Position numbers and translations under genes: made by a program
Part shown: positions 3,809-21,588 of the stretch, piece by piece
How the letters are laid out: every line of letters begins with the position of its first letter
How positions within the stretch are numbered: position 1 is the stretch's first letter
Source of the DNA: a virus
Direction: 5' to 3' (one strand)
Virus record (IMG/VR): IMGVR_UViG_3300007540_000058
Location: 1-30,434 of that record
DNA: 30,434 nucleotides
The notes under the pieces: generated by a model
Seen by the model: the letters and a program-made list of their open reading frames with translations, nothing else
Database searches by the model: none
Told to the model about the DNA's origin: nothing

Positions 3809-3814
3809 ATCTTT

Positions 3815-5773: not shown

Positions 5774-5774
5774 A

Positions 5775-6194: not shown

Positions 6195-6255
6195 TTACTT
6201 GTTTAATAGTATAACGTAATAATTCTACTTTTTGCATAATAAATATTTAGTATAA

Positions 6256-6279
6256 AGAAAAAGGGCTATAAAGCCCTTA
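6256..6279 (-). terminator. Rho-independent terminator after tail tube gene
   Basis: On the minus strand GGGCT-TTATA-AGCCC is followed by T-rich sequence (CCCTTTTTCTTT). It sits in the gap between the tail tube gene and the next gene. Some read-through must supply the portal unless a promoter lies in the remaining gap. Confidence 0.75.
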
Positions 6280-6305
6280 ATCCAAACTAAACACAGAAAA
6301 AAATC

Positions 6306-6836: not shown

Positions 6837-6851
6837 ATTTATATATTTTAT

Positions 6852-6889
6852 AAAAAAAAGGGTAAGTAGGTTGAACCCTTCCTACCCTA
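6852..6889 (-). terminator. Strong terminator after the major capsid gene
   Basis: On the minus strand GGGTAGGAAGG pairs with CCTACTTACCC across a short GTTCAA loop (one A/A mismatch and one G-T pair), followed by eight T. It lies 22 bp past the capsid stop. It probably uncouples capsid mRNA level from tail tube and portal. Confidence 0.85.
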
Positions 6890-6911
6890 ATTTTTTGATT
6901 AATTTAATTTA

Positions 6912-7865: not shown

Positions 7866-7891
7866 TTTATTATTTATTTATTTATTAATTA

Positions 7892-8311
7892 TTATGCTTC
7901 TGAAGCCCATATTCCTACTCCGCCTACAATAAACCACTTTGTTAAAGCTACGGCTCTGATTATTACATAGTCTCCACTGTTTGCAGTTGCTTTAGTGTTT
8001 ACCCAGTCTTTATTAACTACTCCACTTGCTACTGAATCTGCAGCAGCGTTAGCGATAGTTCCGTGAAAACCATCTGTTGAGTGAGGGCTTAAAGTGATTA
8101 TGTTGTTACCGTCTGCTCCTGTATTTCTAAATAAATATGTTAATCCTAAATTTTCAGAATGAATCTGAGGTAGAGAAATAACTAGTGCGTCAGTTGCAAC
8201 GTTTTGGTCTACTCCTGCGTCTCCTGCAGGAATTGATAATGATGCAGAAATAGTATTTTGTGATACTTGTACTCTTACGTCATCGTTACTTGTGTGTATA
8301 AATGTACTCAT
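7892..8311 (-). CDS. Putative capsid decoration (head stabilising) protein
   Basis: A 139-residue Ala/Ser/Thr/Val-rich, beta-prone protein with 'FRNTGADGNNIITLSPHSTD' in the middle and a C-terminal 'DYVIIRAVALTKWFIVGGVG' that reads like a closing beta-hairpin. Its position directly between scaffold and capsid genes is where lambda-type decoration proteins are encoded. I do not recognise a specific family. A minor head spike or fibre is an alternative. Confidence 0.5.
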   Translation of the reverse strand: MSTFIHTSNDDVRVQVSQNTISASLSIPAGDAGVDQNVATDALVISLPQIHSENLGLTYLFRNTGADGNNIITLSPHSTDGFHGTIANAAADSVASGVVNKDWVNTKATANSGDYVIIRAVALTKWFIVGGVGIWASEA

Positions 8312-8322
8312 TGTTTTTATTA

Positions 8323-8937
8323 TTATTTTTTGATTTGACTTATTTTATGTAAAACTCTATCCAGTGTAGTCTCTGCTCTATTTTGACCATACAGGAAAGT
8401 GTCGTTCTTTTTTGGAGGAGCAGAAGATAATGGCTTTCTTGAAGCTTGTTTAGACATTTTTTCTTTTACCTTGTCTACTTCGCCATATTTCTTTTTTAAT
8501 TCTTCTATTTCTTCTTTTACTTCCTCAATAATAGGACTTACTACTTCTACTACTGCAGCAATAATATCTCCCATTTCTGGAGCTACTTCGTCAGGCACTT
8601 CAACTATTACTTCTTCTTCCATATCCTCTCGGATGTCTTCCTTTTCATCTTTAATTCCGTCCTTGTAACCTTCTTCTTCAGCTTCTGGCACAGTTTCGAG
8701 TTTTAACTCGTCTATCATACCGTCTTCTTTTACAATTAACATACGACCATCTTCGATCATATATTCTCCTGCAGGTAGAGGAACTCTCTCGTCTTCGTCA
8801 GTTACGATAAAAACGCTTTCTCCTTTATCATAGGAGTCTGCAAAGATTCTCGTACCGTTATCCAAGATAAGTTCTTCTAGCTCAACATTAACTCCTAGGA
8901 GTGTGTTGATCTTTTTTAACATTTCACTTGCTTTCAT
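8323..8937 (-). CDS. Head scaffolding protein
   Basis: A 204-residue, strongly acidic protein. Residues 21-80 form a beta-rich segment repeating 'LxDGT..' and 'LPAGEYMIEDGRMLIVKEDG'. Residues 88-160 are Glu/Lys-rich and coiled-coil-like (PIIEEVKEEIEELKKKYGEV). A basic Ser/Pro linker then leads to a terminal 'TTLDRVLHKISQIKK' helix, which may bind the capsid. This layout matches scaffold or assembly proteins encoded just before the capsid gene in Bacteroidetes phages. It would guide capsid assembly and be removed, perhaps by the protease encoded at 10761-11384. The family match is from memory; the acidic coiled coil and position are directly visible. Confidence 0.75.
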   Translation of the reverse strand: MKASEMLKKINTLLGVNVELEELILDNGTRIFADSYDKGESVFIVTDEDERVPLPAGEYMIEDGRMLIVKEDGMIDELKLETVPEAEEEGYKDGIKDEKEDIREDMEEEVIVEVPDEVAPEMGDIIAAVVEVVSPIIEEVKEEIEELKKKYGEVDKVKEKMSKQASRKPLSSAPPKKNDTFLYGQNRAETTLDRVLHKISQIKK

Positions 8938-8967
8938 TATTTATTATTTAATTATTAATGTTTATTA

Positions 8968-9429
8968 TTAATTCCAGAAATTTCCTATTCCTGTATAGTC
9001 AGTCACTTCTCTATATTTAGATTTTGCTTCGTCTGACAAACTCTGAGCATTATCTACTCTTTGTTTTAAATTGTCATAATCGTAGTATACTTCACTAGGA
9101 GCTAGACCTAACTCGTCTGCTGCTTTTTCTAATTTATCTAGCATTACTTTTAATATTTCTGCAGCTTCTTCTAAGTCTCTTACATTTCCGTTAATTACAT
9201 AGTCGTCTAGATTATATTTCATTATAAAGTCATCGTAAGCGTCTATTACTTCGTCTCCTAACTCGTAAGCTAAGTAACTAGCGTCAGACTCAGCAGCCTC
9301 GAATCTATCTACTTCATTTTCAATGTCATCTACTAAGGATAAGTCTATTTTTCTTTTTGTGCTTAATACTGCAAAAACTTTATTGTCTTCAGAGTATAAT
9401 TTGTTAAGTATGTTTTTTAATGCTTTCAT
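8968..9429 (-). CDS. Small acidic helical protein, paralogue trio member 3
   Basis: A 153-residue protein of unknown function, acidic and helical. Its N-terminus (ALKNILNKLYSEDNK, then STKRKIDLSLVDDIENEVD) shares the 'ILxKL...S-K-x-xLSLxxD' pattern with the next two genes upstream, so the three look like tandem duplicates that diverged after the first 30 residues. 'AADELGLAPSEVYYDYDNL' in its second half also matches 'SEELGISADTIYPSIEEH' in the 9433-9867 protein. It lies immediately upstream of the scaffold gene, so head assembly or an internal head protein is possible. Confidence 0.65.
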   Translation of the reverse strand: MKALKNILNKLYSEDNKVFAVLSTKRKIDLSLVDDIENEVDRFEAAESDASYLAYELGDEVIDAYDDFIMKYNLDDYVINGNVRDLEEAAEILKVMLDKLEKAADELGLAPSEVYYDYDNLKQRVDNAQSLSDEAKSKYREVTDYTGIGNFWN

Positions 9430-9432
9430 ATT

Positions 9433-9867
9433 TTATACTGATTTTGATTCTCTTAAAAATTCTTCTCCTTGACTAGCAAACTCAGCTAATAAAACTTGTC
9501 CTTCCTCACATAATCTTTTATGTTCTTCTATACTTGGATAGATAGTGTCTGCAGAAATTCCTAGCTCTTCAGATTTTCTATATATTTCTTCTATAATTTC
9601 TAAGTCGTTATTAAAATCTGTCTCTGTAGGAAAAGGCTCTGCATTTTGAAAATATATTGCATAAATGTCTCTTCCTATATCATACCATTGATCAAACTTT
9701 TCAGGAAACCACTCATTAACATTATAGCTTAAAGCACTAACCTGTTCTTCTAACTCATTATATTGACCAAAACTAAAATCGTCTAATAAGCTTAATTCTA
9801 CTTTTTTAGAAAGACTTTCTTTTCTAGCGTTTTTTAGTTTGTTTAGTATTAGTTGTTTTGTGTTCAT
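9433..9867 (-). CDS. Small acidic helical protein, paralogue trio member 2
   Basis: A 144-residue protein of unknown function. It begins MNTKQLILNKLKNARKESLS and continues KKVELSLLDDFS, sharing the N-terminal signature with its two neighbours. The remainder is helical with many aromatic and acidic residues (EWFPEKFDQWYDIGRDIYAI). The 3-bp gap to the next gene shows tight coupling. The conserved 'SLSKKVELSL' segment with a variable remainder could be an anchor or protease-recognition sequence joined to different payloads, but that is speculation. Confidence 0.65.
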   Translation of the reverse strand: MNTKQLILNKLKNARKESLSKKVELSLLDDFSFGQYNELEEQVSALSYNVNEWFPEKFDQWYDIGRDIYAIYFQNAEPFPTETDFNNDLEIIEEIYRKSEELGISADTIYPSIEEHKRLCEEGQVLLAEFASQGEEFLRESKSV

Positions 9868-9880
9868 ATAAATTTATATT

Positions 9881-10366
9881 TTAATTTTCTATATCATTTG
9901 CCCAACTTAATAAACTGATAAAATCTACTCCAACTAAACTTTCTTGTTCATAGTTATAATTATAAATTACACTATCTAAAACTTCATATTTATTTAAAAT
10001 ATCGTAATATTCTCTAACTTCATTAGACATATCATCTAAACCTAATTCTCTTAATCCGTTTTGATATTCAAAAATACTTTCTTTTAAATCTATTGTATCG
10101 TTATTTAAATTGTTATTACTACTTTTTAAGCTTTCATATTCACTAATAAAATCTCTAGCTATAGGTCTTATTTGTTCTAATAAACTATTAAAATTTTTAG
10201 CAATATCGACTACTTTGTCTAAATCTGACTGAGAACTATCATAACCAGATAATGCACTTATAGCATTTTCAACATCACTCTTAAGGCTTAAGTCTACTTT
10301 TTTAGAAAGCTTAGTTTTGTTTTTATGAAGTTTGTCTAGAATAACTTGATTAAATCTAATTGCCAT
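9881..10366 (-). CDS. Small acidic helical protein, paralogue trio member 1
   Basis: A 161-residue protein of unknown function and the first of the trio. Its N-terminus 'VILDKLHKNKTKLSKKVDLS' followed by LKSDVENAI aligns with both downstream proteins. After that it is an Asn/Ser-rich helical protein (SLKSSNNNLNNDTIDLKESI) with a C-terminal 'EYYDILNKYEVLDSVIYNYN'. It overlaps the preceding 65-codon gene by 11 bp. Placement between protease and scaffold suggests head morphogenesis. Confidence 0.65.
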   Translation of the reverse strand: MAIRFNQVILDKLHKNKTKLSKKVDLSLKSDVENAISALSGYDSSQSDLDKVVDIAKNFNSLLEQIRPIARDFISEYESLKSSNNNLNNDTIDLKESIFEYQNGLRELGLDDMSNEVREYYDILNKYEVLDSVIYNYNYEQESLVGVDFISLLSWANDIEN

Positions 10367-10553
10367 ATTTTTCTTTTATATATCCACATATTTTAGGAGC
10401 AGCCTCAGCTCCATATCTTTTAGTTTGATCTGCTATGCATTCGTCCCAAGGGTACTCTTCTAAATTAACCTTAGAATCTATTTGTCTTAAAATTAGAGGG
10501 AAGTTTAAATTGTCCTTAAACAATTTTTCTGTAATCCTGCTTAGTTCACTCAT
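10356..10553 (-). CDS. Small conserved phage protein with 'WDECIADQ...CGYIKEKYG' motif
   Basis: A 65-residue protein. Its second half, 'PWDECIADQTKRYGAEAAPK' then ICGYIKEKYGN, is a short module I have seen repeatedly at the ends of phage head or protease proteins, usually as part of larger polypeptides. Two Cys (in DEC and ICG) flank a helix. Here it stands alone, with 'LILRQIDSKVNLEEYP' in front. Function unknown; a role in head assembly is inferred from context. Confidence 0.6.
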   Translation of the reverse strand: MSELSRITEKLFKDNLNFPLILRQIDSKVNLEEYPWDECIADQTKRYGAEAAPKICGYIKEKYGN

Positions 10554-10588
10554 ACCTATTTAACAACTATAAAAAATATTTTGCATTT

Positions 10589-10783
10589 TCAGGTTATACG
10601 AGTAATTACTCCAATACCTTGAGCCCACAGTGAGCCATCGCAGCACTCTCTTGAGTAAGTGTTTTCGTCTTTACAGTAACACGCTCTAGAACTACTAGAA
10701 GGACTAGCAGGATTCCAACGCTCTTTATAAGGCATAGCTTGACTTCGTCTGTTCATTTTGTTAGTTCTTTTTCTTACTGGCAT
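10589..10783 (-). CDS. Small Cys-rich phage protein
   Basis: A 64-residue protein: a basic N-terminus (VRKRTNKMNRRSQAMPYKER), then a Pro/Ser linker, then 'CYCKDENTYSRECCDGSLWAQGIG' with four cysteines. The 'C-x-C-K...Y-S-x-x-CCDGSLxAQGIG' motif is a short element I recognise from structural regions of Bacteroidetes phages. It overlaps the end of the upstream protease gene by 23 bp. It could bind metal or form disulfides on the virion. Function unknown. Confidence 0.6.
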   Translation of the reverse strand: MPVRKRTNKMNRRSQAMPYKERWNPASPSSSSRACYCKDENTYSRECCDGSLWAQGIGVITRIT

Positions 10784-11384
10784 TTATTAATAGTTTTTTA
10801 ATTTTTAATAACTTAACACCTGCAGAAATTTCAGAATTAAACTCGTCTTTAATTTTTTCTTTAGGTCTTTCTTCTCTATCTAAAAAGAATCCTTCTATAC
10901 TAAAACCTTTAACCTCTCCACTCTTTACAAAGTCTTGCCATATCTCATCGTTATTTACTTTTACCGCACCCATCCAAGTACCGACTGGAACATTCATTCC
11001 GTATAGTGCCGTCTTGTCTTTTTCTTTGTCTTCTACTATCCAGGACTCTACTAAAGTGAGTCCGTCAATATCAAACTTATGTTCTAGAGTAGCATTATTT
11101 TGTTTTCCTTTTTGTAGGAATAACTCACTTGCTTTTTTTACTGTCTCTTTAGAGAAGTATATATAATACTCTTCTTTTCCTTCTTTTCTATAAATAGTTT
11201 TGTTAGGAATTAATAAAGCACCCATTAGGATTTTTTTGTCATCGTCTATTGACTTGAGCTTTATTTCTTTTTGGTCGTTTAGTGCTACGAAGTTTTCTTC
11301 TATAGCAGGACTTTCTACGATACTGATTGCGTCAATACCTGCGTACTCGTCGTCTTCGTCTATAATCAATTCTACTATCTTCAT
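10761..11384 (-). CDS. XkdF-type prohead serine protease
   Basis: A 207-residue protein. 'AISIVESPAIEENFVALN' (19-36), 'ILMGALLIPNKTIYR' (52-66), 'ATLEHKFDIDGLTLVESWIV' (98-117) and 'GEVKGFSIEGFF' (156-167) are the conserved blocks of the XkdF/S78-like protease family. H102 and S162 (in GFSIEG) are the likely catalytic His and Ser. It would process scaffold and head proteins during maturation. The acidic N-terminus and basic C-terminus (LLKIKKLLINASKKKN) are extras. Unusually, it follows the tape measure gene instead of the portal gene. Assignment is by recognised motifs. Confidence 0.8.
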   Translation of the reverse strand: MKIVELIIDEDDEYAGIDAISIVESPAIEENFVALNDQKEIKLKSIDDDKKILMGALLIPNKTIYRKEGKEEYYIYFSKETVKKASELFLQKGKQNNATLEHKFDIDGLTLVESWIVEDKEKDKTALYGMNVPVGTWMGAVKVNNDEIWQDFVKSGEVKGFSIEGFFLDREERPKEKIKDEFNSEISAGVKLLKIKKLLINASKKKN

Positions 11385-11417
11385 ACTTATTTAACGTTTT
11401 AATTATTTATTTTGTAT

Positions 11418-13130
11418 TTAACCTATTGTCGCTCCTTGTACAATATTACGATCTAAACTTTGAGCAGTAGTTACATCGTTACTTACTACAAAAGCTTTTA
11501 TAGGTTCTTGAGTTTGTCCTGTAATAGCTTCAGTTAATTGGTCAGTATTACTTTGACCTACTATATTAAAAGCAGGAGGAGTAAATGTAGGCTTTTGAGG
11601 AGTTGTACTAGAACCTGAAGCAGAACCTCCAACACTAGCAGCAACTTTTTTAGTAGATTTAACTGCACTTATAATTCCACCTATTACACCTGCAGCAGTT
11701 GCTCCGTAAGCAATTAAAGGTAAAATAGCTTTTGGAAAACCTAATTTTAAAGTTTCTCCTAATCCACTAGCTACGGCTTCTCCACCTTTAGCAGCGTCTA
11801 AGTTAGCTTCTGCCATTGTTATACTAGCTTTGTTTTTTAATGCTCCTATGTCTATTAAAAATGCTTTAGCAGCAATTAATTGTTTTGCTAATAAAGCAGC
11901 TTTACCTAATTTAGTTTCTTCTCCAAATAATCTAGCAGTATTATCTAAAGTATCTGTAGCAAAGTCTCGTTGTTTTTGTTGTAGCTCTAACTCAGCATCT
12001 AAAATTTCTTCTTTTTCTTTTATATTAAGTTCAATTTGATCTTGAAATTTCTTTTTATCCTCTGCTTCTTTTGCAGCATCTTCTTCGTCAAACTCTGCTT
12101 GTTTTTGTAATAACTTTTCTCTTTTTGCATCCATTAATGCTAACTCAGTTTCTTCTGTTAGTTCTTCTGACATTATTAAATCAAAGAGTAAATCTTCATA
12201 ATGCTTATTTATATCAGCTCTTTCTTTTGCTCTTTTTTCTTCTTTAGTTATTATAAGAGCATCGTCAATTTGTTCTTGTAGTTTAGCAGAATTTTTTATA
12301 TCGTCTAGTTCTTTTTGTTTTGCTTCTGTTTTTTTCTTTTCAATTTCTTCTATATTTTTCTTTTTTCTGTCAGTTTCCTCTTTATCTAATCTAGCTAACT
12401 TTTGATCTATACTATATGATTTAGATTTTAATTTAGTTATTTCATTTTGTTTTTTCTTTTGTTCTTCACTTTCATCATTTTGAAATTTTATTAAATTGTT
12501 AATTCCTTTTTGAGTATTAAAAACCATATTAAAACCAACGTTTAAATTTTCCATAAACGTTAATTTTTGATCGTCAAGTTTTTGTTGTTCTAATTGTTCT
12601 GTTCTTCTTTCAATTTCTTTATTTAAAATTTCTTGTTGAAGCAATAATTCTTTTCGTAATTCTTTAACTAAGTCTTTTGCACTTTCTCCTCTTAATTTTG
12701 CTATAGAAATTTGTTGTTCTAATATTCCTAAACTTTGATCTAATAATTCTACTGTACGATCAGCTTTGTCATTTAATTTTTGTTGTTCTTCAGATGCTCC
12801 TGTAATAAAATCTACTATGTCATCCCAGTATGTAACTACTAAACCTAGAGCCACAACAAAAGCTCCTATTCCTGTGGCTATCAAAGCAGTTTTCATTCCT
12901 TTAAAACTTTTTGATAATCCTTTAACCGCTACTATACCTTGAGTTACACCTTTTTGAAAGCTTTTAAATTTAGTAATAGCTCCGCCTGTAGCTTTATCTA
13001 ATAAAGAAACTGCATCTCTATTCTCGTCTGTAGTTTCATTAAAAGCATCTAAAGCACCCTGTACGCTAGTTATTTCTTTTTTTGCTTCTTCAGCTCCTTC
13101 TACTTTTATTCTTTGGATTGAAGTTCCCAT
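11418..13130 (-). CDS. Tail tape measure protein
   Basis: A 570-residue protein, the typical tape-measure build: an N-terminal region with hydrophobic stretch 'TALIATGIGAFVVALGLVVT' near 81-100, a long Lys/Glu-rich coiled coil from about 110 to 410, and a second hydrophobic region (FPKAILPLIAYGATAAGVIG near 465-484) before a Ser/Gly/Pro-rich tail. It sets tail length and is injected or ejected with the DNA. By the usual 1.5 angstrom per residue rule its length fits a modest siphovirus tail of roughly 85 nm. No lytic domain is visible. It is preceded by two baseplate genes and overlaps a 51-codon gene. Confidence 0.85.
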   Translation of the reverse strand: MGTSIQRIKVEGAEEAKKEITSVQGALDAFNETTDENRDAVSLLDKATGGAITKFKSFQKGVTQGIVAVKGLSKSFKGMKTALIATGIGAFVVALGLVVTYWDDIVDFITGASEEQQKLNDKADRTVELLDQSLGILEQQISIAKLRGESAKDLVKELRKELLLQQEILNKEIERRTEQLEQQKLDDQKLTFMENLNVGFNMVFNTQKGINNLIKFQNDESEEQKKKQNEITKLKSKSYSIDQKLARLDKEETDRKKKNIEEIEKKKTEAKQKELDDIKNSAKLQEQIDDALIITKEEKRAKERADINKHYEDLLFDLIMSEELTEETELALMDAKREKLLQKQAEFDEEDAAKEAEDKKKFQDQIELNIKEKEEILDAELELQQKQRDFATDTLDNTARLFGEETKLGKAALLAKQLIAAKAFLIDIGALKNKASITMAEANLDAAKGGEAVASGLGETLKLGFPKAILPLIAYGATAAGVIGGIISAVKSTKKVAASVGGSASGSSTTPQKPTFTPPAFNIVGQSNTDQLTEAITGQTQEPIKAFVVSNDVTTAQSLDRNIVQGATIG

Positions 13131-13261
13131 TTTATTTCTTTTTTTAATTTGTTTTTAACATCTCTAAAATTTGTAGTTAGTTTTTTTGAACCTTGAGCAA
13201 ACCTAATATTTTCAGTTTCTCCATTTGCATATTTTAGTAATTCTATTATTTTTTTAATCAT
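13106..13261 (-). CDS. Small basic protein upstream of tape measure
   Basis: A 51-residue frame starting MIKKIIELLKYANGETENIR and ending at 13106, overlapping the tape measure start (13130) by 25 bp in another frame. It is basic and helical (NFRDVKNKLKKEIKWELQSK). It fills an otherwise empty gap between the baseplate and tape measure genes, and the overlap suggests translational coupling. No family recognised. Confidence 0.55.
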   Translation of the reverse strand: MIKKIIELLKYANGETENIRFAQGSKKLTTNFRDVKNKLKKEIKWELQSKE

Positions 13262-13270
13262 AATTTTATA

Positions 13271-15691
13271 TTAAGGTAAAGCACAACTTATGGAAGTTAT
13301 AGCTCCACTTGAATTAAGAGTCATAGCCATAGCAGTTCCGTTATTAGGACAGTGAGTTGTAGTTTCTCCTGTTCCTGTTTGTGTGTATGTTCCTGCTCCA
13401 AGAGGAATAGTTAAATTTGAGTCTGCGTAAATTATGTCTCCATTTTTTAGATTTTCTGCATTTCCAACATTTGATTTATAAAAAACATCTCTACCTACAT
13501 TTTGAAAAAATACATCTGTTAATAGTAAAAAAGTTTGTGAGAAATCATTTAATAATTCTATATCACTTTCTCCAGTTTGAAGATTGGTTTGTATAGTGTT
13601 TATATTAAAAGTTCTATTATTAATTAAAAGTATATCACTAAGTTTTAATTTGTATAATATTTTTAAAGGTAAAAAAGCCTTAATACTTATTAGCCTTCTA
13701 TTAATATCAAATATACTTCTAATGTATTCTCTATAATAATTATTAAATAAAGTACCGCTAAAACTCTCACTAGGACTATACTCGTTAGTTTCCTGATAGA
13801 AGTTAATATTACTTGTACTAGTCGCTGCACTAGTACTAACACTATTAGAAGGAATATAATATTGACTTATTGGAGTATGTGAAGAAGTAGATTCTCTAAA
13901 TGAAATTTGTTTATAATTAGCAGAGCTACTATTAATTAATATAGGATAAAACAATAAAGGTTTTCCGTGATAAGCATCCTGATTGTCGTCTACAAAATAT
14001 CCATACTGTGCAGATGTTTTACCTGTTATAGAAGTTAGTGTAGGATTTGCGTCTACTAGTCTTTCGAACAACACGTGTTCAAATGGAATCTTAATACTAT
14101 AAGTTTGATTATTTCCGTCAAAAGAATCTCCAGTCGTAGTATTATCTCCAGTAAAATTAGCAGCACCCCATAGTTTACCAGTCAACTGATCGTATTGTTT
14201 TGCTAGGAAAGTTTCTGTTCCTTCATAACCAAAACTAATTTGTCTATAAGGTAAAGCTGCGTCAACTGTTTTGTTTTTGACATCTACATATTCTGATATA
14301 TCGTATATATTAAAATCACTGTAAAAATCGTCTAGAGCTTGTACTCTTATTTTTCCTACGTCTGCGTCTGCAGGGTCTTCTACTACATAAGCCGTAAGAT
14401 TAAACATTTGGAACAAAGACGTAAGGAAGTCTAGTATTTTCATTTCAGGAATCTGCTGACTTATAATAAATCTAAAAGTTGCAGTAGCATTAAATGAAGT
14501 TGTAGTAGCATAATCTTCAGTCCAAGGAGTGCCGTTAAAAATTCCTGCTAAAAACCATTTGACTTCTGTAAAAGTTATAGTAACTCCTGTCCCTACAAAT
14601 ATAGTTACAGTATAAGCAGCTTCATCCATTAAAGGCATATCTGCTTTTGTTAAAGTATTTGTTCCTTGTAGATTACTATGAGTAGACCAGACTACACCAT
14701 TTCTGTAAATAATAACGTCATAAGGATTTGAACTAGTAGTAGTAAATCTTATACTTTGTGTAATAGTAGGTAGAGAAGTATTAGGACAAGAAGCACTAGC
14801 ATAAGGATTACAAGAAGAATAAACTTCTAAAGTAGTTCCGTTCAACATTGTAGTTTTTTGCAGAGGTAAATCAAAATCAGTTACAGGAGTAGGGAAACTC
14901 TCTGTTTGTCCTACAGGTTCTACGCTTCCTTTTTTTCTGTGTAACCACATAAATAAATTATAATAAGACGTATTTGTAGTATTAAAGAAATCGTCTGTAA
15001 AAGTTATTCCGTAGTTTGCATTAGCTTGTATAGCTAATATTATTTGATGTATTCTTATTCCGTATTTTAAATCTGAATACAATACTCCGTGATCGTGGTT
15101 ACTTCCTGTATGATAAAATAAATTTCCTGTTCCGTTAGTATGAGCTGAAGTAGCACTGTTATAAAAAAGCCTGGAAGGATTTAAAGGGTCATCTTCATTA
15201 CTTGCTCCTGACGTTATGAGCGGAGCTACAATATGATTTGAAATATTTTGTAGCCTAGCTTTGATAGTAGTCATATTATAATCTAGATCATACGTTGTTA
15301 AATTTAACTCTTGTAATTTAGCTTCTCCTAAAGAATCTTTTAGGCTTACTGTATTTCCGTAGAATACTATACGATAAGCATAAGGACTGTTAAGTTGTAA
15401 ATCTACACCCTCTAGTTTTACAAAACCTTCTTTAAATGTTATGTTGTTTAATTGTATTTCTGCTGCAGTTTTAAATCTAGCGTCATAAAGGTTAGTGCTT
15501 ATATCATAGTTGTAGTAATGCTTAAATATAAGATTGTTAGTTTTTGAAGCAGGAATAGTAAAGTCTTTAGTAAATTCTACAAATATTTTTGCAGGGTCTT
15601 TTATGTTTTGTATAGTTTGATTAAGAGTTACCGTCTCATCTTTAAAAAGATCGACTCTTTGACCTCCAATATATAATTGTAGTTTTTGCAT
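13271..15691 (-). CDS. Baseplate / tail tip protein
   Basis: An 806-residue beta-rich protein. The N-terminus (MQKLQLYIGGQRVDLFKDET, then 'KDPAKIFVEFTKDFTIPASKTNN' near 32-54) is a pattern I associate with conserved tail-tip proteins of flavobacterial phages. A central 'EMKILDFLTSLFQMFNLTAY' near 415 looks like the hub-type segment. The C-terminus carries 'TTHCPNNGTAMAMTLNSSGA' and a final Cys. It directly follows the 330-residue tail protein with a 1-bp overlap. It probably forms part of the tail tip to which fibres attach. Exact structural role unproven. Confidence 0.65.
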   Translation of the reverse strand: MQKLQLYIGGQRVDLFKDETVTLNQTIQNIKDPAKIFVEFTKDFTIPASKTNNLIFKHYYNYDISTNLYDARFKTAAEIQLNNITFKEGFVKLEGVDLQLNSPYAYRIVFYGNTVSLKDSLGEAKLQELNLTTYDLDYNMTTIKARLQNISNHIVAPLITSGASNEDDPLNPSRLFYNSATSAHTNGTGNLFYHTGSNHDHGVLYSDLKYGIRIHQIILAIQANANYGITFTDDFFNTTNTSYYNLFMWLHRKKGSVEPVGQTESFPTPVTDFDLPLQKTTMLNGTTLEVYSSCNPYASASCPNTSLPTITQSIRFTTTSSNPYDVIIYRNGVVWSTHSNLQGTNTLTKADMPLMDEAAYTVTIFVGTGVTITFTEVKWFLAGIFNGTPWTEDYATTTSFNATATFRFIISQQIPEMKILDFLTSLFQMFNLTAYVVEDPADADVGKIRVQALDDFYSDFNIYDISEYVDVKNKTVDAALPYRQISFGYEGTETFLAKQYDQLTGKLWGAANFTGDNTTTGDSFDGNNQTYSIKIPFEHVLFERLVDANPTLTSITGKTSAQYGYFVDDNQDAYHGKPLLFYPILINSSSANYKQISFRESTSSHTPISQYYIPSNSVSTSAATSTSNINFYQETNEYSPSESFSGTLFNNYYREYIRSIFDINRRLISIKAFLPLKILYKLKLSDILLINNRTFNINTIQTNLQTGESDIELLNDFSQTFLLLTDVFFQNVGRDVFYKSNVGNAENLKNGDIIYADSNLTIPLGAGTYTQTGTGETTTHCPNNGTAMAMTLNSSGAITSISCALP

Positions 15692-16683
15692 TATCTAACA
15701 TTGTTTATATAATCGTAAGACATATCAAACTCAAAAGTATATTCTATAAGTTTATTGTTCACTACTGTCTTTTCTACTATGTTGTTTTTCTTTACGTTTA
15801 CTGGCACTACTTCACTTGAACTAGGATTTGTAGGTACTAGTCTAGTAAGCCAGACTTGTTCAGAAAGTATTAACTGCTCAAACCATTGGTTAGCCCATTC
15901 AGGATAAAAGCCTGAACTAAGAACTATATTAGTATTTGCTACAGTATTATAAACTTGTTTAGTATGAGTGTTTACATTGTATGTTCCTGTAGCTGAAATA
16001 ATATTTCTTTGAAACTGATCTTGTTTTTTGTTAGTAGTGTTTTGAGATTTTAGGAAAAACCAAATGTCTTGTAAAGCACCAAACTTATTTACAAATGTAA
16101 CTTTATGTCCGTCTCCGTATTTAGAACAGTCGACTCTTACTATATTCATTTTAATTCCTGCTGGACTACCTGTTATTTCATATTGTGTTGTATTATAACT
16201 TTGATAGCCCATAGTTTCGTTAGCAATTATATAAGGAACAGAACCTGCGGTAGAGTTAGGTACATAAATATAATATTCATCATTTATTCCTGTATGGTTA
16301 GGGTCTCCACTTATAAGCCAAGTAGGTCTGCTTCCAAAAGGTACTACAGGATTTGAACCCTCCATAAAAGTTCCGTAACCGTCATAACCTATGTCAGTAA
16401 AAGTAGAACCGTTTATTAATGCGTCAGCACTAGTGTAAGCATTTACTACTGTAGATACAGTAATAGTTTTTGCCGTATAAGTTCCGTTAAAAGTAATGTT
16501 TAAATAATCTCTACAAAGCTCTGAAATTTCAAATAAGACTGTAGCTGAAGGACTTGTGTTTTTTCTTAATACATATTGAGGACTACCTGCTCCGTCTATA
16601 GTAATTGAACAAGTTGTATAAGCTGCATTTGCTCCTGCAGTTATTGTTTTATATTGTGGGCTTCTTAATGCTATTGCTGACAT
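15691..16683 (-). CDS. Distal tail / baseplate protein
   Basis: A 330-residue Thr/Asn/Val-rich beta protein (MSAIALRSPQYKTITAGANA at the start; 'KVTFVNKFGALQDIWFFLKS' near 196-215; C-terminus 'KLIEYTFEFDMSYDYINNVR'). The 'F-V-N-x-F-G-A-x-Q-D-x-W-F' motif is shared, from memory, by tail proteins of Bacteroidetes phages. It sits between the neck gene and the 806-residue baseplate gene, overlapping the latter by 1 bp. A distal-tail-type adaptor is the best guess from position. Confidence 0.6.
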   Translation of the reverse strand: MSAIALRSPQYKTITAGANAAYTTCSITIDGAGSPQYVLRKNTSPSATVLFEISELCRDYLNITFNGTYTAKTITVSTVVNAYTSADALINGSTFTDIGYDGYGTFMEGSNPVVPFGSRPTWLISGDPNHTGINDEYYIYVPNSTAGSVPYIIANETMGYQSYNTTQYEITGSPAGIKMNIVRVDCSKYGDGHKVTFVNKFGALQDIWFFLKSQNTTNKKQDQFQRNIISATGTYNVNTHTKQVYNTVANTNIVLSSGFYPEWANQWFEQLILSEQVWLTRLVPTNPSSSEVVPVNVKKNNIVEKTVVNNKLIEYTFEFDMSYDYINNVR

Positions 16684-17265
16684 TTAATTTGGTATTGTTA
16701 CGGTTATCTCAGTTGGTTCTTTAGATTCAGATAAAGCTATTTCTATGTCTCTTCCTAAAGCTTCTTCTAGTTCTATTTCTAATTGTTTTAAATATTTTTT
16801 TAAAGGTTTATCAAAAAAGTAACTAGGTTTTAATCCTGTTAAATAAATACTTCTAGTAATTAAAAACACCATAGATTTTCTAGGAATAAACCTACCTAAG
16901 TTATCTCTAACATTACTTAATCCAGGCTTTCTAACTACCCATTTATCTATGGCTCCTCTTAAACCTCCTTTTTTTCCTGAGCCAGAACCAAACTTATAAG
17001 GACTCATAGGAGCTTTATTATAGCGTGATATAGAGTTAGGCGGCATTTTAGAAGGTGCTGCTCCTTGAACTCCTAGATCATAAAAATTAGCATAATTAGT
17101 TCCTATAAAGTTTATTTCAATTTCATTATTGTTACCAGGAATTTTATAATCTAAACTATTATACAAATCTCCATTAGAATTGCCAGATTTTGCTAGATTA
17201 TCTTTAGCTGCAGAAACTACGTTTAAAGCAAAAGCTTCTAGTATTTTATTTACTTCTGCTAACAT
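16684..17265 (-). CDS. HK97 gp10-like neck / tail completion protein
   Basis: A 193-residue protein with the gp10 layout: an N-terminal helix (NKILEAFALNVVSAAKDNLA), then 'GDLYNSLDYKI' (the 'SG-x-L-x-x-S' block), a beta-strand 'EINFIGTNYANFYDLGVQGA' near 51-70 ending in the family's 'Y-A-x-F-x-x-x-G-V-x-G', and a C-terminal amphipathic helix. Such proteins join the tail to the head connector. It overlaps the preceding tail terminator-like gene by 7 bp. Confidence 0.65.
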   Translation of the reverse strand: MLAEVNKILEAFALNVVSAAKDNLAKSGNSNGDLYNSLDYKIPGNNNEIEINFIGTNYANFYDLGVQGAAPSKMPPNSISRYNKAPMSPYKFGSGSGKKGGLRGAIDKWVVRKPGLSNVRDNLGRFIPRKSMVFLITRSIYLTGLKPSYFFDKPLKKYLKQLEIELEEALGRDIEIALSESKEPTEITVTIPN

Positions 17266-17732
17266 ATATAAATATCATTTTCTACAGTTATATTTACATT
17301 CATAGCCCATCCTACTAATTCGTTTTCGAACCTATCGAAAAAAGGTTCAAACGTTACATCTGTGTCTACTTGGTACATATCATTAAATAAAGTTCCTGAT
17401 CTCATCTGCTCTACGAGTCTATTACCTACTCCTAGCTGAGTGTTTAAAATATCCATTTCATCTGTATTTCCTGTAAACTGATCTACTACTACTGCTTTGT
17501 TTACATCTATAATATCCATAAGAAGTATAGTTATATTATAAGTCATTACTTGTCCGCTTTGAACTACGTTATTTATAATAATATGAGACAACGGAAATAT
17601 AGTTTGCTTACGCAAATCTACTTGACTTATATCTCCAAACGTAACTGTCTTTACAAAAGGACTAGCTAGTAACTGTTGTTCTAGTTTTTCCATTATTAAA
17701 TAATAACTTCTTATTCCTCTTTTATTGCTCAT
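17259..17732 (-). CDS. Putative tail terminator / tail-to-head joining protein
   Basis: A 157-residue protein with an N-terminal helix (SYYLIMEKLEQQLLASPFVK) followed by alternating strands (QTIFPLSHIIINNV, MTYNITILLMDIIDV) and a late 'MYQVDTDVTFEPFFDRFENE' plus 'VGWAMNVNITVENDIYIC'. The alternating helix/sheet order with a final strand pair resembles tail terminator (gpU-like) proteins, and its neighbours are a gp10-like gene and the putative tail chaperone. It overlaps both neighbours by a few bases. I assign it mainly by context. Confidence 0.5.
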   Translation of the reverse strand: MSNKRGIRSYYLIMEKLEQQLLASPFVKTVTFGDISQVDLRKQTIFPLSHIIINNVVQSGQVMTYNITILLMDIIDVNKAVVVDQFTGNTDEMDILNTQLGVGNRLVEQMRSGTLFNDMYQVDTDVTFEPFFDRFENELVGWAMNVNITVENDIYIC

Positions 17733-17979
17733 TTCTTTTTAATTTTTGATAACTGTATATTTCCTTTATCTTTTATATACTCTAAAGCACTTAAACATTT
17801 ATGGAAATTTAATTTTGTAACTTCATCTATTTTTGTGACGTCTTCGTTTGCAAGTCTCCAGAGTGAATGATACCATCCATATTTAACATTGAAGTTAGCT
17901 TCTCGTGATAGGTCTGTGTCTTCGGATTTTTCAAAGAGTTCCTCATAACTGATACTAAGTCTCTTTCTAAAGTCCAAAA
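17729..17979 (-). CDS. Tail chaperone -1 frameshift extension
   Basis: A second frame runs below the tail chaperone gene. Entered by a -1 shift at the T9 run (17984-17976), it reads LDFRKRLSISYEELFEKSED and ends with 'KYGWYHSLWRLANEDVTKID' and a basic C-terminus, adding 82 residues after F163 of the upstream product (245 residues in total). This second part, with 'YGWYxSLxxLAxxDxTKIDExTKLN', looks like a genuine conserved segment and not shadow coding. An ATG at 18034 in this frame (MGVNETYASKFSNGMY) exists but would lie inside the conserved part of the first frame, so fusion is the preferred reading. The upstream frame alone gives the short form. Confidence 0.6.
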
Positions 17980-18465
17980 AAAAAGCATACATCCCATTAC
18001 TAAATTTAGAGGCATACGTTTCATTAACTCCCAATAAGTATCTCCTTTATATTCTTCTATTTCGTAACTGCCTTTGTAATTTTGTAAGACAGGTCTATAT
18101 AAAACTGCCATAGCTCTATGCATAGTTTCCCAGTCTGTTATATAAGTATCGACATCTACATACTCTCCAAAAGTCATATCGTCTAGCTGAGGAATAAATC
18201 CAAACTCTATTTGGTCATATTTCCATCTTGCTATTAAGTTAGGTTTTTCGTTTAATGCTAAATTTATTTTTTCACAAATTTCAAAAACATCACTCATTTT
18301 TAATTGAAGACTATGATCTTCAGGAAGACCACAAAATATTTCTAGCATTTTAATAGCTATAAATTCTTCTGACAAATCTTCGTCAGTACATTCTTTTAGA
18401 AACTTTTGATACTGTTCTAAAGTAATATCTTGCATTCTAGTAGGTACGTTTACTTTTAATTCCAT
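17827..18465 (-). CDS. Putative tail assembly chaperone (short form)
   Basis: A 212-residue protein, first gene of the structural block. Its conserved-looking parts are the N-terminus (MELKVNVPTRMQDITLEQYQ), 'GFIPQLDDMTFGEYVDVDTY' near 89-108, 'MHRAMAVLYRPVLQNYKGSY' near 115-134, and 'PLNLVMGCMLFF' ending at residue 163, where the T9 slippery run lies. The pattern 'AMAVLYRPI' is familiar from flavobacterial phage tail genes. Tail chaperones of the gpG/gpGT type are made in two forms by -1 frameshifting and coat the tape measure during tail assembly; the overlapping frame here fits that. The gene lies far from the tape measure (about 4.7 kb), whereas lambda-type chaperones sit right before it. 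A terminator upstream (18500-18529) separates it from the tiny genes. Confidence 0.55.
   Translation of the reverse strand: MELKVNVPTRMQDITLEQYQKFLKECTDEDLSEEFIAIKMLEIFCGLPEDHSLQLKMSDVFEICEKINLALNEKPNLIARWKYDQIEFGFIPQLDDMTFGEYVDVDTYITDWETMHRAMAVLYRPVLQNYKGSYEIEEYKGDTYWELMKRMPLNLVMGCMLFFWTLERDLVSVMRNSLKNPKTQTYHEKLTSMLNMDGIIHSGDLQTKTSQK
17976..17985 (-). promoter_or_regulatory. Candidate -1 ribosomal frameshift site
   Basis: On the minus strand CTT-TTT-TTT-TGG of the tail chaperone frame forms U-UUU-UUU, a slippery heptamer where both tRNAs re-pair after a -1 slip. The first codon of the shifted frame is TTG, continuing LDFRK. The two frames overlap by 208 bp. Confidence 0.6.
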
Positions 18466-18499
18466 ATACTTATATAACGTTAAATTTAATTATTTTTAC

Positions 18500-18529
18500 A
18501 AAAAAAAAGGGCAGCCTTTTGACTACCCT
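18500..18529 (-). terminator. Terminator before the structural operon
   Basis: On the minus strand GGGTAG-TCAAAAGG-CTGCCC (six pairs, one U-G) is followed by eight T. It lies between the cluster of tiny genes and the tail chaperone start at 18465, so it would limit read-through into the structural genes. Confidence 0.8.
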
Positions 18530-18556
18530 AATTTAAACAAAAAAACCATTACTATA

Positions 18557-18721
18557 TTATAGGAAAACAAAACATAATATAGACATTAAAAACAAAGCTA
18601 TAAAAACTACTTTTAAAAGTTTCATAGTCTCGTTTACTTTTCTAGGACTTCTGCCCTGGTTACTTCGATACTGTCTCATCGCTCTAATTTTATTGTGATT
18701 AAACCATTCCTTATTAGTCAT
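18557..18721 (-). CDS. Small membrane protein (54 aa)
   Basis: A frame starting at ATG 18721 that overlaps the stop of its upstream neighbour (TAATG). The N-terminal 34 residues are basic and polar (MTNKEWFNHNKIRAMRQYRS). The C-terminal 20 are a transmembrane segment (LLKVVFIALFLMSILCFVFL). Positive-inside rules would place the N-terminus in the cytoplasm. Function unknown; it may act on the host membrane. Confidence 0.6.
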   Translation of the reverse strand: MTNKEWFNHNKIRAMRQYRSNQGRSPRKVNETMKLLKVVFIALFLMSILCFVFL

Positions 18722-18876
18722 TACGTTAAGTATAAAGTATTAAAAACATTATACAAAACTTTAACTACTGTCATTATTGCTACTGTGCAAAATGCTGCAG
18801 AAAATAGTATAGTACTAAACTGTATTACTAGTCCTGCGTAAAATCTTAAAAAGTTATCTAATTTTTCTTTGCTCAT
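18721..18876 (-). CDS. Small membrane protein (51 aa)
   Basis: A 51-residue protein starting MSKEKLDNFLRFYAGLVIQF and continuing with a hydrophobic stretch (STILFSAAFCTVAIMTVVKV) that would span the membrane once or twice. It is coupled by stop-start overlap to the next gene. No family recognised. Confidence 0.6.
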   Translation of the reverse strand: MSKEKLDNFLRFYAGLVIQFSTILFSAAFCTVAIMTVVKVLYNVFNTLYLT

Positions 18877-18882
18877 ATTTTA

Positions 18883-19029
18883 TTATTTATAATTTTCTTT
18901 GTTAATAATTTTTCCTTCTAAGTCCAGGATAGTATATCCTTGAGACGCTAATAGTCTTATAGCTTTCTTTTGTTCCTTGACTCTTTCCTGGATTCTATAG
19001 GTTTCGAATATTTCGTTTGATATTGGCAT
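18883..19029 (-). CDS. Small hypothetical protein (48 aa)
   Basis: Starts MPISNEIFETYRIQERVKEQ and ends 'KKAIRLLASQGYTILDLEGK' plus a short Asn/Lys tail. A helix followed by 'LLxxxGYxILDxEGKII' suggests a tiny helix-strand-strand domain. No family recognised. It is spaced 6 bp from the downstream membrane gene. Confidence 0.55.
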   Translation of the reverse strand: MPISNEIFETYRIQERVKEQKKAIRLLASQGYTILDLEGKIINKENYK

Positions 19030-19050
19030 AATTATTTATTTAAGGTTAAT

Positions 19051-19069
19051 GGGACGCTTCATGCGTCCC
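19051..19069. repeat. Perfect hairpin GGGACGC-TTCAT-GCGTCCC
   Basis: A 7-bp perfect inverted repeat that contains the stop codon of the 54-residue gene upstream. It is not followed by a T-run on the minus strand, so it may be an mRNA stabiliser or a weak attenuator rather than a classic terminator. Confidence 0.6.
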
Positions 19070-19223
19070 CTTTATTAATGTATCTACCTTGTACTCTCCA
19101 AAATCCTTTACCAGATTTATATTCTTTTGAACCAGGCTTTGCACCGTAGACATCCATTACTTTAAAGTCTGGATTAGTAATTAAATTTGCTAGATCATCT
19201 AGCGTAGTAGCGTAGTAATACAT
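19059..19223 (-). CDS. Small hypothetical protein (54 aa)
   Basis: Starts MYYYATTLDDLANLITNPDF, continues 'KVMDVYGAKPGSKEYKSGKG', and ends 'FWRVQGRYINKGDA'. A helix plus a strand pair with conserved-looking Gly/Trp/Arg ('GFWRVQGRY') suggests a small fold with a basic face. It starts 1 bp after the stop of the zinc-ribbon gene upstream. Function unknown. Confidence 0.55.
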   Translation of the reverse strand: MYYYATTLDDLANLITNPDFKVMDVYGAKPGSKEYKSGKGFWRVQGRYINKGDA

Positions 19224-19224
19224 A

Positions 19225-19374
19225 TTATTTTTTTTGAGTTAATTCGGGAAGACCCCATTGATTGTAAGTAAGTTCTAAGTCTAAAGGAACTCCGCAGTCT
19301 TCTGCTTCACATTTAAAATTGTCTATGTGGTTATCGTGTCCGCAAAGTTCGCAAGGCTTATATTCTTTTCTCAT
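19225..19374 (-). CDS. Zinc-ribbon mini-protein (49 aa)
   Basis: Starts MRKEYKPCELCGHDNHIDNF and contains C8-x2-C11 and C22-x4-C27, the spacing of a small zinc ribbon. The rest is acidic (CGVPLDLELTYNQWGLPELT). It is the first gene after the hairpin-rich non-coding stretch. It may bind nucleic acid or a host protein. Confidence 0.6.
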   Translation of the reverse strand: MRKEYKPCELCGHDNHIDNFKCEAEDCGVPLDLELTYNQWGLPELTQKK

Positions 19375-19422
19375 ACCTAAAGTTACAAAAAGTTATTCAC
19401 ATATACAAATAGTATTATATAC

Positions 19423-19453
19423 AAAAAAACCAGACCTCTCGACAGGACTGGTT
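19423..19453 (-). terminator. Terminator ending the hairpin-rich region
   Basis: On the minus strand AACCAG and CTGGTT pair, followed after a T/T mismatch by CC/GG, around loop TGTCGAGA, and then seven T. It lies about 150 bp after the stop of the 95-residue gene and closes the structured stretch. Confidence 0.8.
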
Positions 19454-19608
19454 TATAAGAGTTGTAAAAGACGTTACTCTTACATATTTTAGTTGCACCT
19501 AAAACATAGTTTATATCACTTCAACTCTTTACGCTTTCTCGAATTAGTTTTAATCTTTTCCGATTATACGCTTGTAAGGTTACAAGTTTTGTAGATGTAC
19601 GAGTCTAC
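19423..19608 (-). ncRNA. Putative structured non-coding RNA or structured 3' UTR
   Basis: This 180-base stretch has no plausible gene but a chain of hairpins on the minus strand: GTAGA/TCTAC (19591-19608), CTTGTAA/TTACAAG with a two-base centre (19571-19586), TTTTAG/CTAAAA with loop GTGCAA (19487-19504), TAAGAGT/ACTCTTA (19456-19482), and a terminator (19423-19453). No tRNA cloverleaf, T-loop or CCA fits. It could be a phage small RNA processed from, or transcribed with, the 95-residue gene, or a DNA site. Only the inverted repeats are seen; expression is inferred. Confidence 0.4.
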
Positions 19609-19892
19609 TCTACCTGACGCTTACTGTTTTTAAGTTTTATCATTTCTGATAATATAGGTTTAAATATATTTTGCTGAAACTCTATAAGAGTAAGCATATT
19701 GTCAGCAGGTTCATCTTTCTTAAATGCAAAGTATTTTCTACATAAATCTAAATACTTCTTATTTCGTTTTTTACTAATTGTTTGTTTAGTATTTAAAACA
19801 TAAACAAAAGATTTAAGCATATTCATTGCAGCTTGAGGATTTTCTTTAAGGTCATCCTTAAAAGTGTTACTTGCAGTCATTTTAAAAATCAT
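19605..19892 (-). CDS. Hypothetical protein, 95 aa
   Basis: Starts MIFKMTASNTFKDDLKENPQ (M5 is an alternative start). It is helical and basic (QTISKKRNKKYLDLCRKYFA near 38-57; C-terminus MIKLKNSKRQVE). No family recognised. It stands alone: an operator-like palindrome and a TAnnTTTG box lie upstream, and a hairpin-rich stretch ending in a terminator lies downstream, so it appears to be its own transcription unit. A DNA-binding or regulatory role would fit but is not shown. Confidence 0.6.
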   Translation of the reverse strand: MIFKMTASNTFKDDLKENPQAAMNMLKSFVYVLNTKQTISKKRNKKYLDLCRKYFAFKKDEPADNMLTLIEFQQNIFKPILSEMIKLKNSKRQVE

Positions 19893-19928
19893 AAATTAAA
19901 AATTAAAGGTTATACATTTTTTACACTA

Positions 19929-19936
19929 CAAACATA
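19929..19936 (-). promoter_or_regulatory. Bacteroidetes-type -7 box (TATGTTTG)
   Basis: The minus strand reads TATGTTTG, matching the TAnnTTTG -7 consensus of Bacteroidetes sigma factors, 37 bp upstream of the 95-residue gene. No clear TTG -33 element is visible. A palindrome occupies that position. Confidence 0.4.
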
Positions 19937-19944
19937 TAAAGTAT

Positions 19945-19965
19945 GTGTGCAGTACACGTGCACAC
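19945..19965. promoter_or_regulatory. Operator-like palindrome GTGTGCA-N7-TGCACAC
   Basis: Perfect 7-bp arms separated by GTACACG. It ends immediately downstream of a zinc-ribbon gene stop and overlaps where the -33 region of the TATGTTTG promoter would be, so a repressor bound here could block transcription. It is more GC-rich than its surroundings. Confidence 0.45.
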
Positions 19966-20091
19966 TTATTTCCAGAACTTAACATCTCCACATTTAGGAC
20001 AGTAGAAATAAAAACCATTTTGCAGAGAACCTGTAGGAGTCATTTGCCTTTCGCACTTTTTACAAAAATTATCTAATTGCGTATTTTCCAT
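19966..20091 (-). CDS. Zinc-ribbon mini-protein (41 aa)
   Basis: Starts MENTQLDNFCKKCERQMTPT and ends with 'FYFYCPKCGDVKFWK'. C10-x2-C13 and C31-x2-C34 form a classic two-knuckle zinc ribbon of the kind seen in many small phage proteins. It overlaps the end of the large terminase gene by 23 bp, so it is translated as part of the terminase mRNA. Confidence 0.65.
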   Translation of the reverse strand: MENTQLDNFCKKCERQMTPTGSLQNGFYFYCPKCGDVKFWK

Positions 20092-21229
20092 AATTAGGTC
20101 TAGCTAGTTTATTATAGATTCCGTAACGCAGACTGTCGCAAAAATGATTCCATTTGTCTTCTGGAGTATTAAGGATATTTCCGTTCTTATCTTCTTTCCA
20201 TTTATAATTACGAAACTCTTTTATAGCATTCTGGCTTTTCTTTGTTACGTGTATAGTATATCTCTTTAACATATCAATTCCAATATTAATAGAGTCACGC
20301 CCTTTTGTACTGGGCTTTATGTTCCATCCATACCTATAGAGTTCGTCAATAGTTTTAGGCTCAGCGGAGTCAGCAAAGATTTCGTCTCTTCTATTAATTT
20401 CTAGACTTAACAATTCATTATGAATATCTCTATTTGTCATTCCAGTACGGTATAACAGTTCTTCGCAATAAAGGTTTGTATCGTGTAAGTAAATTTTAGA
20501 AATGCAAGTAGGGTCATTCGAGTAGCCAAAATCCATTCCATAAGAAACGAACTTAGCATTGTCAGGTATTTTCTCTATTTCTCTAAATTGGAATATAGTA
20601 GCTTTGCTTTGTCCGATCTCTCCAAGTCCATATATTCTCCAGTAGTTTTCGTCTGTGTACTGCAGTCTTTCTATTTCTTTTACTATCGACTCCTCCAGGA
20701 ACTTATTGTCCTTATAAGTAGTCTTGTAAAAGTCTGCGTCTTCTCTTGTTTTTACTTTGTCATATATCCAGTGAAATTCGTCTGAAGGATTATAGTCTAG
20801 TATTATTCTACCTACTGTTCTAAATGCTAACTGATTCCAGTCTTCCCAGAATAATTCGTTAGCTTCATTAATAAAAAGCAAATCTCTTTTTCTACCTCTT
20901 ACTTTTTGTGGAGAGTCTAAAGAAATAAACTCTACTAGGTTTCCGTTTATCTTATACTCGTGACTTGTCTTATTATGATCTTCTTCGTTATACAGTTCAG
21001 TGTTTTTTAGTATCTCAAAAAAATCTCTCATAGCTGAGGTTCTTAATGCAGGAAAAGTTTTTCTACATATAGAGACTACTTTGTTTTTATTTTTTAAACA
21101 GTAACCAAATATAATCCAGATCAGGATGTTATAAGTCTTACCGCTTCTAGAACCACCTTGTTCTATTACTATTTTCTTTTGGCTTTTTTCTAAGTGCTTC
21201 CAGACTACGTTTGTCTTTAAGTCTCTCAC
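20069..21229 (-). CDS. terL: Terminase large subunit
   Basis: A 386-residue packaging motor. Walker A is GGSRSGKT (25-32), Walker B is LLFINEA (117-123, E122 catalytic), and the coupling motif is DYNPS (145-149). The C-terminal RNase-H-like nuclease shows D233 (GMDFGYSNDPT), D287 (FADSAEPK) and D365 (FCDSLRYG). It cuts concatemeric DNA and pumps it through the portal. The start is GTG, overlapping the small subunit stop (GTGA). It matches the Terminase_3 type. The class suggests either headful or cohesive-end packaging, which I cannot decide from sequence. Confidence 0.95.
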   Translation of the reverse strand: MRDLKTNVVWKHLEKSQKKIVIEQGGSRSGKTYNILIWIIFGYCLKNKNKVVSICRKTFPALRTSAMRDFFEILKNTELYNEEDHNKTSHEYKINGNLVEFISLDSPQKVRGRKRDLLFINEANELFWEDWNQLAFRTVGRIILDYNPSDEFHWIYDKVKTREDADFYKTTYKDNKFLEESIVKEIERLQYTDENYWRIYGLGEIGQSKATIFQFREIEKIPDNAKFVSYGMDFGYSNDPTCISKIYLHDTNLYCEELLYRTGMTNRDIHNELLSLEINRRDEIFADSAEPKTIDELYRYGWNIKPSTKGRDSINIGIDMLKRYTIHVTKKSQNAIKEFRNYKWKEDKNGNILNTPEDKWNHFCDSLRYGIYNKLARPNYGKYAIR

Positions 21230-21588
21230 TCTACAACTTCAATTCTAAATTCTTTATTATCTCCAGTGTCTATTTCTTGACGTGGAACATAACCTCTAGA
21301 CTTGCCTATTGTTTTTAAATAGAATATTATAGAAGTTTCTTTTTCGCTTTTAATACAGTCAAATAGTTTAGACTCTACAAAATCTATAGCAGAGTTTTTT
21401 ATATCCAGGACTTTTGCTTTATACTCCTCGTCATCTTCTAACCATCTATAATGAGTTCTTCTGTTTATTCCTGCGTTTATACTTGCAGTCGATACTATAC
21501 CTAAGCAGTCTTCTAAAGCCTGAAGCATTTTATCTTTGTTTTCTGTTTTCATTATATCTTTTTTATAGTGTGACATTTGTGTCATCAC
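21226..21588 (-). CDS. terS: Terminase small subunit
   Basis: A 120-residue protein with an N-terminal helix-turn-helix (LEDCLGIVSTASINAGINRR, then THYRWLEDDEEYK) followed by helices that form the oligomeric ring and a C-terminal tail (KEFRIEVVE) expected to contact the large subunit. Such proteins recognise the packaging site. M1-M2 or M5 could start. The four-base overlap with the large terminase gene confirms the pair. Confidence 0.85.
   Translation of the reverse strand: MMTQMSHYKKDIMKTENKDKMLQALEDCLGIVSTASINAGINRRTHYRWLEDDEEYKAKVLDIKNSAIDFVESKLFDCIKSEKETSIIFYLKTIGKSRGYVPRQEIDTGDNKEFRIEVVE

Follow-up and report, generated by a model that had tools for sequence, protein, structure and literature searches.

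A conserved T-run joins two reading frames of a tail-block gene in Bacteroidetes phages, which probably encodes a tail assembly chaperone pair

In the window (the whole stretch of DNA analysed here, a record of 30,434 bases from a virus infecting marine Bacteroidetes), one gene probably gives rise to two forms of a protein by a ribosomal -1 slip, and these forms are most likely a tail assembly chaperone pair of the gpG/gpGT kind known from phage lambda. Most ribosomes would read the first frame, ORF1, through to its stop (212 aa), and a minority would slip back by one base on a T TTT TTT heptamer, giving a protein of 245 aa composed of the common first 163 residues and a conserved helical domain of 82 residues. 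In such a pair of chaperones the common part would coat the tape measure protein, the long form would also recruit tail tube subunits, and the slip frequency would fix the ratio of the short to the long form. In this explanation, which we consider the best one, the site, the frame, the open extensions and the selection acting in the -1 frame come from comparison, and the ribosome as the agent, the slip frequency, the binding partners and the function are inferred. The gene is organized as follows.

17827..18465, minus strand: ORF1, the 0-frame product of 212 aa, gpG-like; an N domain of 163 residues ending in Leu-Phe-Phe, then a 0-frame tail of 49 residues
17976..17984, minus strand: T9 run (A9 on the plus strand); codons 161-164 of ORF1 read CTT TTT TTT TGG in the 0 frame
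17977..17983, minus strand: -1 slippery heptamer T TTT TTT (X XXY YYZ)
17732..17977, minus strand: -1-frame extension of 82 codons, a T-like domain with the conserved motif F..KWGWY.S...LA..D
17830..17976, minus strand: 0-frame tail past the slip site, 49 codons
17729-18034, minus strand: mechanical -1 ORF, with a TTG start
17729..17732, minus strand: ATGA overlap between the -1-frame stop (TGA, 17729-17731) and the start of the next gene

ORF1 and the mechanical -1 ORF overlap by 208 bp, and in each the T9 run encodes Phe-Phe. When the frame slips by -1 on T TTT TTT, the 163 residues in common with ORF1 are joined to the 82 codons of the extension, for a product of 245 aa with ILFF|LSFR at the junction. 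The coordinates and the arithmetic of a preliminary description of this DNA (ORFs, overlap, Phe-Phe and a fusion of 245 residues) were all reproduced from the sequence. As for the extent of the second ORF, the fusion of 245 aa stands and the -1-specific part was narrowed to the 82 codons at 17732-17977, the TTG of the mechanical -1 ORF being merely the first start codon past a stop and not credible as the true start. The T9 of ORF1 is the sole coding-strand run of eight or more Ts within any gene of the window.

Conservation of the slip site was evaluated in 224 related loci, a figure in which about ten contigs are counted twice. A T-run was found at the slip point in all 224, as T9 in 174, T10 in 49 and T12 in one, so that more than 200 natural variants of one slip site are now at hand. 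The search with ORF1 retrieved 80 viral loci, at 41-100% identity, all carrying T TTT TTT at the equivalent place; contigs that reach far enough also have the -1 extension, with 82-86 codons. The search with ORF2 added 75 loci, a scan of bacterial genome contigs added six, and a search seeded with gp38 of phage P12024S reached loci at 25% identity to the seed; the T-run was present in all of them. A distant scan seeded with locus L088 gave no matches, and no phage record was matched by tblastn with ORF2 of locus L085. Past the slip, both the 0 frame and the -1 frame stay open in the relatives. The -1-frame extension could be aligned across 42 members, including P12024S, at 30-92% identity to the window, and the 0-frame tail has mostly 46-84 codons, with 16-25 in the P12024 group and about 6-8 in locus L129.

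The overlapping ORFs are therefore joined by a conserved -1 slippery heptamer of the X XXY YYZ type, which lies in the zero frame and is followed by an open downstream frame. The alignment of homologues, which the preliminary description had proposed as a check, showed the slip site to be kept throughout, and no relative of the ORF1 family was found that lacks the homopolymer and has the second half as an independent gene whose start is conserved. The frameshift that had been claimed is strongly supported by the conservation of the site, by the frame relation and by the selection in the -1 frame described below, and from these comparisons we regard it as essentially certain that the -1 frameshift in the ORF1/ORF2 gene is real. 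The locus with T12 (L123, near 6001) has three Ts above T9, and its frames are preserved. Other candidate heptamers, TTTAAAA and CCCTTTG, proved to be chance sites upstream of the T-run itself, and four loci apparently devoid of the -1 extension (L202, L215, L216 and L225) lack it solely because of the contig end, as checked for L215.

Selection on the two frames was evaluated from the differences at the three codon positions among 23 distinct close relatives. Before the slip, these were 0.158/0.089/0.339 in the 0 frame; after the slip, counting in the -1 frame, 0.157/0.075/0.25; and past the 0-frame stop, still in the -1 frame, 0.165/0.116/0.326. The fast (wobble) position passes from the 0 frame to the -1 frame no more than about 30 nt from the slip, and among the codons of the overlap with a single difference 58% are synonymous in the -1 frame versus 22% in the 0 frame. 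Together, the shift of the wobble position and the excess of synonymous differences indicate that the -1-frame part is a real protein, under protein-level selection in that frame; this is in agreement with the earlier remark that the second part looks like one. The same comparison indicates an only weakly constrained 0-frame tail that is nonetheless kept open. In locus L129, near 1612, this tail stops about eight codons past the slip, which suggests that it may be dispensable.

It could be argued that ORF2 stands on its own as a gene, initiated from a start within ORF1. Indeed gp39 of P12024S is annotated as a separate gene, and in the window two potential starts in the -1 frame, TTG and ATG, stand shortly before the slip. 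However, these two codons are not conserved in the relatives, the -1 frame is conserved from the slip onward, a point upstream of where gp39 is annotated to start, and the Met used as gp39 start is not conserved across the family. Moreover, among the more distant relatives, at about 40-49% identity, most have no ATG, GTG or TTG in the -1 frame from the last upstream stop to the slip, so that independent initiation cannot be general, and we consider a separate gene highly improbable. Even less credit can be given to a decayed gene or to an error of sequencing or assembly within the homopolymer. T9 runs are prone to error, but the frame relation is equal in all 224 loci, coming from many samples and also from independently sequenced isolates, and purifying selection is found in both parts of the gene; both versions of this explanation are refuted by the comparative data.

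The T-run itself is unusually strict. In a tree of 131 distinct sequences, neither of the two Phe codons of the slip site is ever TTC, while among five other well-conserved Phe codons, used as a control, four show at least 8 to 22 switches between TTT and TTC and the fifth, next after the slip, is held by an overlapping 0-frame Leu. A C as the last base of the second slip codon would alter neither protein. Such runs are also rare elsewhere: in the other N-free ORFs of the loci (908 kb, partly homologous flanking ORFs whose bases are not fully independent), synonymous shuffles predict about 12 runs of T9 or longer and 46 of T8, and we found 0 and 10, respectively. This count of zero sets aside three residual runs, which are copies of the ORF1 gene missed by the filter, and one further T-run lay in an ORF containing N, outside the N-free count. 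With a T-run in 224 of 224 loci and none in 908 kb against about 12 expected, T9 or longer in the ORF1 gene is far beyond chance. Coding-strand runs of A9 or longer outside the ORF1 gene are depleted less than those of T8 and T9 or longer (30 versus about 100 expected).

These observations bear on whether the ribosome or the RNA polymerase slips. Ribosomal -1 frameshifting at the T9 is favoured. A possible, though somewhat unlikely, alternative is that the two products arise from slippage of the RNA polymerase on the T9, with one U added to some transcripts. Nine As or Ts suffice for slippage of a bacterial polymerase (PMC5009743), and a homopolymer of at least nine Ts stands here at the frame junction and is never shorter in the 224 loci. 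The depletion of T8 and T9 runs in the other ORFs points in the same direction, as does the absence of TTC, since T TTT TTC would keep the heptamer and both residues. Nor did we find a hairpin signal downstream: the 75 nt after the slip fold like shuffled sequence, with a mean z of -0.02 over 79 loci. This also counts against the explanation that we favour; a stimulatory RNA structure is a common, not a universal, feature of programmed -1 ribosomal frameshifting. However, T9 follows largely from the coding constraint plus the heptamer (NTT TTT TTT T[GG/AY]), and well-studied phage tail chaperones use ribosomal frameshifting. By a pairing argument, tRNA-Phe would also be expected to slip by -1 more readily on U UUU UUU than on U UUU UUC, and for this reason the invariance of the run fits ribosome and polymerase alike and the comparative data do not decide between them. 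Transcriptional slippage genes with nine As or Ts, such as Thermus dnaX, are alike in that a homopolymer of about nine opens a second frame; there it is the RNA polymerase that slips, which for the present gene is the less favoured reading. That in this phage group the ratio of the chaperone forms is set by the polymerase slipping on a T-run with an obligatory length of nine or more, such runs being purged from the other genes, seems to us doubtful. Because T9 is absent from the rest of these genomes, whether the ribosome or the polymerase slips can be tested directly.

The gene lies among tail genes, between the large terminase gene and a series of four genes that precede the tape measure gene. 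The neighbours are listed below, with descriptions by appearance where no named match is given.

20069..21229, minus strand: terminase large subunit (TerL), upstream landmark; PHROG E 2e-33
17259..17732, minus strand: g157, 157 aa, tail-terminator-like by appearance; PHROG of unknown function
16684..17265, minus strand: g193, 193 aa, HK97 gp10-like by appearance; PHROG of unknown function
15691..16683, minus strand: g330, 330 aa, probable distal tail protein by appearance
13271..15691, minus strand: 806 aa, probable tail hub protein by appearance
11418..13130, minus strand: tape measure protein, 570 aa; PHROG tail length tape measure, E 6e-8

The order TerL, ORF1/ORF2, g157, g193, g330 and hub-like gene is found in P12024S and, among the relatives whose loci are long enough, in nearly all. 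The g157 gene stands directly downstream of ORF1/ORF2 in nearly all relatives and in most of them starts within a few bases of the -1 stop; the tape measure gene comes next after the hub-like gene in the loci that reach it, and P12024S keeps the full order. The distance of 4.7 kb from the tape measure gene, which had been pointed out in the preliminary description, is real, and with its four intervening genes it recurs in P12024S and in the relatives that reach the tape measure gene. ORF1/ORF2 is thus not immediately upstream of the tape measure gene, a position that is usual for tail chaperones, not biochemically defining. No chaperone gene occupies the usual place in the window, where the 806-aa gene and the tape measure gene are only about 140 bp apart. 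It follows that a chaperone-like frameshift gene can stay away from the tape measure gene, and searches limited to the neighbours of that gene miss such cases.

The most informative named relatives are the isolated Nonlabens phages P12024S and P12024L. Their gp38-gp39 is a true homologue (28% identity in P12024S), with the same position after TerL, the T9 slip site, an equivalent -1 extension and the same downstream gene order; unlike our reading of the window, its annotation gives two hypothetical proteins and no frameshift. The two annotated genes of P12024S (locus L082, 15001-15695) are one frameshifted gene, so that database entries split one protein in two, and a widespread, unannotated gene family of (mostly marine) Bacteroidetes phages gains a label. 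By Foldseek against predicted viral proteins, the ORF1 model matches a large group of phage proteins without names, P12024S and also R9VW65 of Flavobacterium phage 6H (E 3e-4), a member of the Duneviridae. Several proteins of 226-267 aa, likewise unnamed, are hits for the models of ORF1 and of ORF2 alike, as a fused chain would be. Close relatives of the 6H gene (PHROG 25418) consist of one ORF each, of 289-304 aa, and have no usable slip site. The profile of the 6H family aligns with the fusion over the full length (hhalign probability 97%, E 5e-11), more weakly with ORF1 alone (E 3e-9) and without significance with ORF2 alone (E 0.18), and the claim of common descent rests therefore on the full-length profile. 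These comparisons indicate that the more distant relatives of the 6H type, remotely homologous to the fusion, encode both parts as one continuous ORF and, unlike the window, make the fused form only. In the record of phage 6H itself (locus L164, 10352-10927) the protein has 191 aa, against 293 aa in one frame in L228-L230, which are 98-99% identical; the 6H record probably carries an indel or a sequencing error at this point.

In lambda, gpG and gpGT are made by -1 frameshifting at a crucial ratio, and such pairs are widely conserved despite low similarity (PMC5009743). The ORF1/ORF2 gene resembles lambda gpG/gpGT and its counterparts in the overlapping ORFs, the -1 slip on X XXY YYZ near the end of the first ORF, the common N part, the place in the tail block and the single copy. 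It differs from them in having no detectable homology, a T TTT TTT heptamer always within T9 or longer, four genes before the tape measure gene and a 0-frame tail of about 50 residues. By this analogy ORF1/ORF2 is likely to be this phage's version of the lambda chaperone, and there is a fair probability that it acts like the gpG/gpGT pair. The role earlier proposed is plausible on the grounds of architecture, of the position in the tail block and of the lack of a rival candidate by the tape measure gene; against it stand the missing significant named match and the distance from that gene. Searches with ORF1/ORF2 of Pfam, PHROG, NCBIfam and PDB sequences gave no match naming the protein, weak Pfam and PHROG names (DUF7275 at E 0.05 and others) being below the cut-off. 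The AF2 model of ORF1 has a mean pLDDT of 78, with a confident N domain and residues 186-212 below 50; compared with PDB folds it gave nothing significant (best E 0.5, VIA Z at most 3.1), and the model of ORF2 is weak (pLDDT 70, pTM 0.47, Z at most 2.6); we take these fold comparisons as speaking neither for nor against the chaperone. In a viral structure library the first two named matches of ORF1 are 'tail assembly (chaperone) protein', at E 0.07-0.08, below significance. We found no literature on this gene or on tail frameshifting in flavobacterial phages, subscription journals being outside the coverage.

It is also conceivable, if unlikely, that the frameshift is real and that the protein is some other factor of head-tail joining or tail morphogenesis needing two forms. 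This would fit the want of a named homologue, the location directly after the terminase, before neck-like genes and far from the tape measure gene, and the 6H-type relatives, which make the fused form only and whose gene is located behind portal-like and DUF6712 genes. Yet a -1 frameshift conserved in a small tail-block gene is the hallmark of tail chaperones, there is no other candidate, and the viral library matches, though not significant, are to 'tail assembly' proteins. The chaperone pair is therefore the reading that we prefer. Since frameshifting in tail chaperone genes is already well known, ORF1/ORF2 would be an unannotated member, unusual in its position and in the strictness of its homopolymer.

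The structural genes of the window (3293-21588) have an unusual order, with terminase, tail genes and tape measure before protease, major capsid, tail-tube-like, portal (identified by PHROG) and connector genes. A candidate tail tube protein is encoded at 6306-6836. Finally, the C-terminal part (SDERLKENI...IGVIAQE) of the ORF at 29393-30145 looks like what we take to be an S74-type intramolecular chaperone of a tail fibre.
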